Assembly (NCBI GenBank): GCA_028289585.1
Contig: JANQPI010000042.1
Span: 62,001-126,000 of the forward strand
Direction: 5' to 3'
From: Candidatus Zixiibacteriota bacterium
GTDB taxonomy: Bacteria > Zixibacteria > MSB-5A5 > GN15 > FEB-12
DNA: 64,000 nt
Both the position numbers and the translations under genes were made by a program. Positions 61,873 to 62,932 of the stretch are shown piece by piece (position 1 is the stretch's first letter; each line of letters opens with the position of its first letter). The notes under the pieces are model-generated. The model made no database searches, had not been told where the DNA came from, and worked only from the letters and a program-made list of their open reading frames with translations.

Positions 61873-61900
61873 TTGGCGGATCAGTTCTTTTGTGTATAAC
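61873..61900 (+). promoter_or_regulatory. Promoter of orphan small transcript
   Basis: TTGGCG (61873-61878), 16-bp spacer, TATAAC (61895-61900), pointing right. There is no conventional gene on this strand before the terminator at 62028-62061. Confidence 0.55.
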
Positions 61901-61934
61901 TCCCGTACACTCGGAAAGGAGGTGGTCAACATAT

Positions 61935-61970
61935 ATGAGTTTTGACTGTAGTGAGGTGACTGCTAGCTAG
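61935..61970 (+). CDS. 11-residue ORF MSFDCSEVTAS in the orphan transcript
   Basis: ATG-to-TAG, 12 codons, with GGAGG 12 nt upstream (rather far for efficient initiation). It contains one cysteine and no hydrophobic run. It could be a leader-type peptide, a precursor, or a ribosome-docking site with no functional product. Confidence 0.4.
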   Translation: MSFDCSEVTAS

Positions 61971-62027
61971 TTGCCGACCCCATCGATTTCCGTTGGGAGC
62001 GCTAGCTAAAACCCAACAGAATCACCG

Positions 62028-62061
62028 AACGAGCCCTCCTTTCCGGACGGCTCGTTTTTTT
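62028..62061 (+). terminator. Terminator of the orphan small transcript
   Basis: Stem AACGAGCC/GGCTCGTT (62028-62035 with 62049-62056), 13-nt loop, then an unbroken run of T on the plus strand. On the minus strand no T-run follows, so it acts rightwards. The last bases overlap the stop of the neighbouring lipoprotein gene. Confidence 0.82.
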
Positions 62062-62932
62062 ATGGCTGGTGCGGCTTGGCAATGCCCCCCGGTGCGGTCA
62101 ATTCGAAGACATCGATCTGCCGTACAGTTGAATCTCCCAGCGTATCGGTGAAGACGACCAGGCCGACGGCATCCCACTGAAACTCAAACGCCGGCACCGC
62201 TGGATCGGTCAAATCGAGGAAGGCACGGTCCGGGGGACCATAGACGGCCTCAACGTCGCGATACGGAGAGACATCCACTTGCAATGAATCCAGCGTCGGA
62301 TGCACGTAGGCATTGGGGGTGTCGTACGCGGTGGCAAGGACCCCACGTACCGGTTCGGTGTCTTCGATCTGGCTGTTCGAATTGACATCCCAGACCATCA
62401 CGACGAGACCTTCAGCTTGGTCGTAGAGAGCCAAGTTGTATGCACGTCCGCTCAACGGTACCGTCCCTGCCGGATTGCCCTTCCACGTCTTGACATCGGC
62501 GTACCGATCCGAAAACAGAATCAGGTCACCCTGACCGTTGTTGCCGGGGATGAGCACCGGCGCCCGGAGAACAAACGTCAGCGTATCGTCCTCGTGCGTT
62601 GCCTCAACAACCGCCTGACCGAGTGAGCCGGTGAAGGCATAGGAGAACGTCGCAACTCCGGAGACGTTGGTAACCGTATCGCTGCTGAATAGCCCGTCTC
62701 CCGAAAGCACCCGAAACGTGACACGAGCACCGGGCACCGGATTATTGGACGCATCTCGCACGGTTACCTGTGGCGACGGTGTCAGTGTCGATTGGCCGAT
62801 GCGCCCCACGATTCGTGTGGCATTGGCGGACAACGATCCAGAGGCGGGTGGCGGATCAACCGGGTTGTCCTCAGGACAACCCGCAACTAAAAGTCCAGCG
62901 ATGACTATCGAGGCAATCGATACGTATCTCAA
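62060..62932 (-). CDS. Lipoprotein with bacterial Ig-like (Big-1-type) domain
   Basis: 290 residues from a TTG at 62932, chosen because it overlaps the stop of the upstream gene in a TTGA arrangement with GGGGG 5 nt upstream; an earlier TTG at 62944 is possible. Lipobox LLVAGC. Residues about 25-115 follow the Big-1 pattern (VTVRDASNNPVPGARVTFRVLSG, then GVATFSYAFTG). The C-terminal 170 residues are unrecognised, beta-rich, with no catalytic motif. Coupled to the barrel gene upstream, so possibly a surface partner of it. Confidence 0.78.
   Translation of the reverse strand: MRYVSIASIVIAGLLVAGCPEDNPVDPPPASGSLSANATRIVGRIGQSTLTPSPQVTVRDASNNPVPGARVTFRVLSGDGLFSSDTVTNVSGVATFSYAFTGSLGQAVVEATHEDDTLTFVLRAPVLIPGNNGQGDLILFSDRYADVKTWKGNPAGTVPLSGRAYNLALYDQAEGLVVMVWDVNSNSQIEDTEPVRGVLATAYDTPNAYVHPTLDSLQVDVSPYRDVEAVYGPPDRAFLDLTDPAVPAFEFQWDAVGLVVFTDTLGDSTVRQIDVFELTAPGGIAKPHQP

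Follow-up and report, generated by a model that had tools for sequence, protein, structure and literature searches.

A free-standing Ms_IGR-5 small RNA in Zixibacteria with a conserved short ORF and a fold that may be gated by a ribosome at its stop codon

Results

Layout of the locus

The window, by which we mean the whole stretch of 64,000 nucleotides analysed from a Candidatus Zixiibacteriota genome, carries on its + strand a small RNA of ~157 nt (61907–62063), which was identified with the Rfam covariance model RF02471 (Ms_IGR-5) and scores 116.6 bits with our own model, R1. Both neighbouring genes lie on the − strand, one of them encoding a peptidyl-prolyl isomerase whose nearest named relatives come from Candidatus Zixiibacteriota, and all of the elements that the original prediction had named here were found in place. 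The putative promoter consists of a −35 element, TTGGCG (61873–61878), with a T-rich tract directly upstream, and a −10 element, TATAAC (61895–61900), separated by a 16-nt spacer. The same arrangement of T-tract, TTG, −10 and GTACAC was seen again upstream of 43 homologues, in which the TTG and T-tract recur at the same place and the TAT-like −10 positions are 70–80% conserved. The 5' end at 61907 was placed by the conserved (GT)ACAC.

The Shine-Dalgarno (SD) sequence CGGAAAGGAGG (61912–61922) runs into an extended tract, GGAAAGGAGGTGGTC (61913–61927), that is complementary to the 3' tail of 16S rRNA with one G.U pair. A hairpin, P1 (GUCAA/UUGAC, 61925–61946; covariation helix 1), holds in its loop the start codon of an 11-codon ORF (ATG...TAG, 61935–61970) that would encode MSFDCSEVTAS*. 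The ORF contains an internal SD-like GAGGTG (61953–61958), 9 nt 5' of the stop codon, whose GGU pairs in the RNA with ACC at 62024–62026 to form H1 (covariation helices 2 and 3). The stop codon itself is part of UAGCUAG (61964–61970), the 5' strand of helix H2, and the 3' strand is CUAGCUA (62002–62008; covariation helix 4). A candidate switch strand, GUUGGG (61992–61997), was assigned two partners from duplex energies and ensembles: a variable strand upstream (P3up) or the near-invariant CCCAAC (62012–62017; P3alt), which is changed in 2 of 43 homologues. Palindromic GCTAGCTA repeats are also present. The RNA ends in an intrinsic terminator (ACGAGCC, a 13-nt loop and GGCTCGT followed by a T run, 62029–62061; covariation helix 5), and its loop (62036–62048) contains the anti-SD-like CTCCTTTCCG, which is specific to this genome, the loop sequence varying among homologues. 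The SD complement CCTCCTTTCCG (62035–62045) begins one position earlier, its first C sitting in the terminator stem. A mechanical scan listed neither the promoter nor the terminator, because it accepts a −10 element only with a T at the end and terminator loops of at most 8 nt, although both recur in homologues.

Family membership and distribution

With cmscan, 61907–62063(+) matched RF02471 (Ms_IGR-5, "Actinobacteria sRNA") at 52 bits, against a gathering cut-off of 45, and the match was full length (model positions 1–184, not truncated). By the family's own cut-off, the window RNA belongs to RF02471, a known family to which the original prediction had not assigned it. The host is a Candidatus Zixiibacteriota bacterium, so the actinobacterial host of the family name does not apply here; the host is not part of the model. 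When the Nocardia farcinica, Nonomuraea and fecal-scaffold copies were compared side by side, the actinobacterial members were found to share with the window RNA an SD tract, a GAGGUG block, a helix enclosing the stop codon and a terminator.

The window genome has a single copy of the RNA, and the Rfam model matched 29 of 61 relatives. R1, which was built from 26 Zixibacterial copies, matched 46 of 132 Zixibacteria genomes, most of them at 110–160 bits and each with one copy. A two-element pattern (AAAGGAGGTGRTY, 8–38 nt, GAGGTG) was likewise found in 46 of the 132, versus 2 with the reversed pattern. More than half of the Zixibacterial genomes lack the RNA, including near-complete ones and highly complete members of the same family, and it is therefore patchy in occurrence and dispensable rather than essential. 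The pattern was at background in Verrucomicrobiota (2 of 195) and Pseudomonadota (2 of 299), and Firmicutes-type matches reached E ~0.06. A stringent version returned no viral homologue in 2.9 million viral contigs; the 29 matches to a looser viral pattern resembled ordinary coding or phage sequence and were rejected.

Several database records deserve comment. MT835602.1, labelled "Bacteriophage sp." and derived from feces, holds a full RF02471 RNA at 76.9 bits (locus L129:3001–3176) and is probably a mislabelled actinobacterial contig. NZ_LN868939.1 and NZ_LT559118.1 (loci L127 and L271) are listed in PLSDB as plasmids, yet at 2.66 and 11.85 Mb they are chromosome-like. DYGG01000011.1 (L041) is titled Ignavibacterium sp., and the genome taxonomy used here places it in Zixibacteria. 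In one genome (L227; G027:C1, ~984,850–984,943), the 3' half of the RNA falls in a run of Ns, and this copy was found by the pattern and missed by the model search.

Ms_IGR-5 has for years been catalogued as an expressed sRNA of Actinobacteria. The Streptomyces lividans copy has been validated by RNA-seq as a discrete small RNA (PMC8079986), and ribosome-protected reads have been reported on the Mycobacterium abscessus and M. smegmatis copies (PMC4974804). The passages on Ms_IGR-5 in the literature examined assign the RNA no function and mention neither a conserved ORF nor a second SD-like element.

Translation signals

The 16S gene of the window genome ends in GGATCACCTCCTTTCT. GGAAAGGAGGTGGTC pairs with this tail over 15 nt with one G.U, compared with a maximum of 11 elsewhere in the 64 kb. 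The SD tract, which had been singled out in the original prediction, proved to be the most conserved part of the RNA; it spans the whole 16S tail, and its GAAAGGAGGTG is invariant in alignment A1. As a separate observation, tandem AAAGGAGGTGATCCCATTAACTTTAG, that is, extended SD tracts in a row, occur in a Verrucomicrobiota genome (G869:C13:34829–34910; loci L275–L277).

In alignment A2, comprising 43 homologues, the frame leading to the conserved stop is open in every copy, and the other two frames are closed in 43 and 41 of them. A canonical in-frame start was found at SD distance in 36 (TTG in 24, ATG in 11 and GTG in 1), and the remaining seven lack a canonical start but have an AUU in frame. 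SD-to-start spacing varies freely, and the distance from start to GAG always amounts to 5, 6, 7 or 8 complete codons. The actinobacterial ORFs read alike: MDSSRTREVAVR in Nocardia farcinica, MISDRTCEVARR in the fecal scaffold, MVNFRTEEVAAA in Tsukamurella and MVSHSRASEVVVR in Nonomuraea, with MIDLWTCEVAAR* as the Rfam consensus. These comparisons indicate that the tiny ORF of the original prediction is real and that its frame is under selection. By eye, no longer ORF that would arise from frameshifting or readthrough at the stop was seen in the copies checked. The AUU-only copies (L011, L025, L027, L029, L120, L126 and L146) have the AUU at the same SD distance; AUU starts are rare and known from infC.

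The distance from the end of GAGGUG to the stop codon is exactly 9 nt in 43 of 43 Zixibacterial copies. The two-element pattern also occurs in Planctomycetota, in 25 of 199 genomes against 1 control match. All 26 planctomycete loci examined have a start at SD distance and a stop 7–10 nt after GAGGUG; this combination was expected in 2–7% of shuffled versions (16% in one case). Given that these loci were found through both elements, the independent evidence they offer is the ORF, the stop and the distance. Common descent with Ms_IGR-5 appears likely, with seven of 79 matching R1 at E <= 0.01. Across the planctomycete loci, GAGGUG is read as E-V, R-R-W or R-G, which represents all three frames, in otherwise different peptides. 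Since GAGGUG and its spacing from the stop persist whichever frame is used, they are kept as RNA and not as peptide. GAGGUG could also be kept only for the H1 pairing, and not for anti-SD binding.

Two simpler accounts of these signals were weighed. The first is that the RNA is a plain ribosome decoy, whose extended SD titrates 30S subunits and whose ORF is translated as a by-product. An SD tract that covers the whole 16S tail and is conserved above everything else in the RNA is what a decoy would show, yet a decoy needs no frame, and the frame, a well-spaced start and the GAGGUG-to-stop distance are kept throughout (43 of 43 homologues and 26 of 26 planctomycete loci). We consider this account unlikely. 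The second, that the locus is a microprotein gene whose relevant product is the 11-residue peptide, could draw on the C-terminal E-V-[A/T], which is kept in Zixibacteria, Actinobacteria and some Planctomycetota. Other Planctomycetota, however, read GAGGUG in the two remaining frames, as RRW or RGG, with the rest of the peptide unrelated, and the strongly conserved 3' half of the RNA is non-coding. A microprotein is thus a poor candidate, and the peptide itself is probably incidental.

Terminator loop and genomic context

The headline of the original prediction was that the terminator loop mimics the 16S anti-SD, with CTCCTTTCCG either sequestering the SD tract or pairing with the SD sites of other mRNAs. 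Within the window this has some appeal. The 11-nt Watson-Crick match between loop and SD is exact, a distant self-complement of that length occurs in just 3 of 1277 overlapping 157-nt windows, the duplex is predicted at −25.1 kcal/mol, and the minimum-energy fold of 61900–62070 pairs the loop with the SD. When the exact transcript ends are used, however, the predicted minimum retains the terminator hairpin. The exact complement is found at the terminator loop of the window copy and in none of the other 42 homologues, whose loops differ freely in sequence and length; their best duplex energy is −18.3 kcal/mol, with most at −8 to −15. A conserved anti-SD loop with a CCUCC-type seed was rejected on the same count (1 of 43). 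The match is therefore unusual locally and absent from the rest of the family, which makes this explanation very improbable for the RNA in general. An SD/loop switch or a role of the loop in trans would be at most special to the window genome, where an effect of the loop on SD access is possible.

A downstream ORF was called at 35 Zixibacterial loci, and the gene there is co-oriented with the RNA in 18 and opposed in 17. Neighbouring proteins cluster between close relatives only, and the flanking genes are otherwise unconserved. Because the orientation of flanking genes is random and the neighbours are not conserved, the comparison shows that the RNA is free-standing and does not serve any given gene as its leader or attenuator, in agreement with the original prediction, which had argued from the two − strand neighbours. 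A cis-acting leader, to which the SD, short ORF, alternative helices and terminator bear an outward likeness, can practically be discarded, as the downstream gene is opposed in the window and in those 17 loci and no downstream gene is conserved across loci.

Alternative folds

Covariation was counted in A2, an alignment fitted to the same helices that were later counted. In it, 95.6% of cells are paired and two-sided changes occur in 16 of 26 pairs, and no measure was equalled in any of 500 shuffles or in any of the slid versions. P1 has 85% of cells paired and two-sided changes in 2 of 3 pairs; H2, which holds the stop codon, has 95% of cells paired and two-sided changes in 6 of 8; and the terminator helix has two-sided changes in 8 of 9. 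Conservation beyond the terminator, on which the original prediction had hinged, turned out to be strongest there, the reverse of a signal confined to the terminator.

The variable upstream strand can pair with GUUGGG (P3up) at a summed duplex energy of −402.5 kcal/mol, compared with −257 ± 12.7 kcal/mol in shuffles. The 3' arm, AAAUCCCAACAG, is nearly invariant in Zixibacteria, and P3alt is beyond a covariation test within that group because its strands hardly change there. At the corresponding place, Nocardia and Nonomuraea have different but complementary strands (UGGUAU/AUACCA and GUUGUCUCGU/ACGAGGCAAC; P = 0.02 and 0.007 against shuffles). Such complementarity was not observed in the fecal copy and was not clear in a divergent Zixibacterial family. 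Thermodynamic ensembles split between the folds from copy to copy, with mean pairing of 0.38 for P3alt and 0.75 for H2; the values for the window copy are 0.36 and 0.76. Since GUUGGG:CCCAAC crosses H2, the two must either alternate or be present together in a pseudoknot.

The switch proposed in the original prediction thus survives in part: two alternative folds are indicated, and the strands that would exchange are GUUGGG/CCCAAC and the stop-codon helix rather than the SD and the loop. Its suggestion of ribosome engagement is likewise supported.

Discussion

Our preferred reading is that the locus encodes a free-standing, translated small RNA, a mini-mRNA, in which a ribosome detained at the stop codon governs the fold, and we would give this reading an even chance of being right. 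The comparison behind it covers the SD tract, the ORF frame, the GAGGUG-to-stop distance, H2, the terminator, the two partners of GUUGGG and the free-standing locus. A ribosome would bind at the extended SD, make a peptide of no further use and arrive at the stop. There it would be slowed as its anti-SD re-paired with GAGGUG, which lies ~6 nt away from the final sense codon, a spacing like that of initiation, and its footprint would hold H1 and H2 open. Occupancy would then decide between the long closed fold (H1, H2 and P3up) and the GUUGGG:CCCAAC fold. In this way, the RNA would report on ribosome loading or act through it, most likely by retaining ribosomes or in trans via the 3' arm. What we infer is the slowing at the stop, the choice of fold by occupancy and an effect exerted by the retained ribosome or through the 3' arm. 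As a target for the 3' arm, the genome's rRNA segment was unremarkable, with longest exact complements of 9 nt.

A broader version can be put forward tentatively, and we regard it as rather doubtful: Zixibacteria, Actinobacteria and Planctomycetota may share a class of free-standing mini-mRNAs in which a ribosome parked at the stop by the internal SD-like element is the regulatory signal. Such an RNA would gauge how many initiating or terminating ribosomes are available, flip between two conserved folds and expose a trans-acting arm. Sensing of initiation factor 3 would be in keeping with the recurrent weak starts behind an extended SD, which are UUG or, in 7 of 43 copies, solely AUU.

These results extend the reach of Ms_IGR-5 to Zixibacteria, with a counterpart of the same layout in Planctomycetota, and the conserved ORF with its stop-proximal SD-like element provides a first testable idea of what the RNA may do. 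An RNA apparently designed for translation and for detaining a ribosome at its end would also bear on whether internal SD elements control termination. Genetically tractable carriers are available in M. smegmatis and Streptomyces.

The closest known system is RF02471 itself, with which the window RNA shares a full-length model match, the SD tract, the GAGGUG block, the ORF frame, the stop-codon helix and the position of the terminator. It differs in its 3' arm (AAAUCCCAACAG in the window, GCGAAUNCNNGGCAG in the actinobacterial family), in ORF length (11 codons compared with 12–13) and in host phylum, which is Zixibacteria and not Actinobacteria. The window RNA is a family member far outside the phylum for which the family was named.

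The alphaproteobacterial sRNA CC2171 (RF01867) has the same extended SD start (CGAAAGGAGGUGAUCC), with a short ORF and a terminator downstream of it. Unlike the window RNA, it usually has no GAGGUG near the stop, its peptide begins MSH... and its 3' half is different; its covariance model had no match to the window at E <= 1. The CC2171 loci L177–L186, L188, L189 and L194 have an extended SD and an ORF of 14–25 residues, mostly with an MS(H/D/S) start, and judging from these reading frames, that family may be coding too.

SgrS is a dual-function small RNA, both coding and regulatory. Pos19 is another (PMC5036791). Both resemble the window RNA in being small RNAs with a translated short ORF, whereas the window family is set apart by its extended SD, an ORF of only 9–16 codons and a stop codon that lies within a conserved helix.
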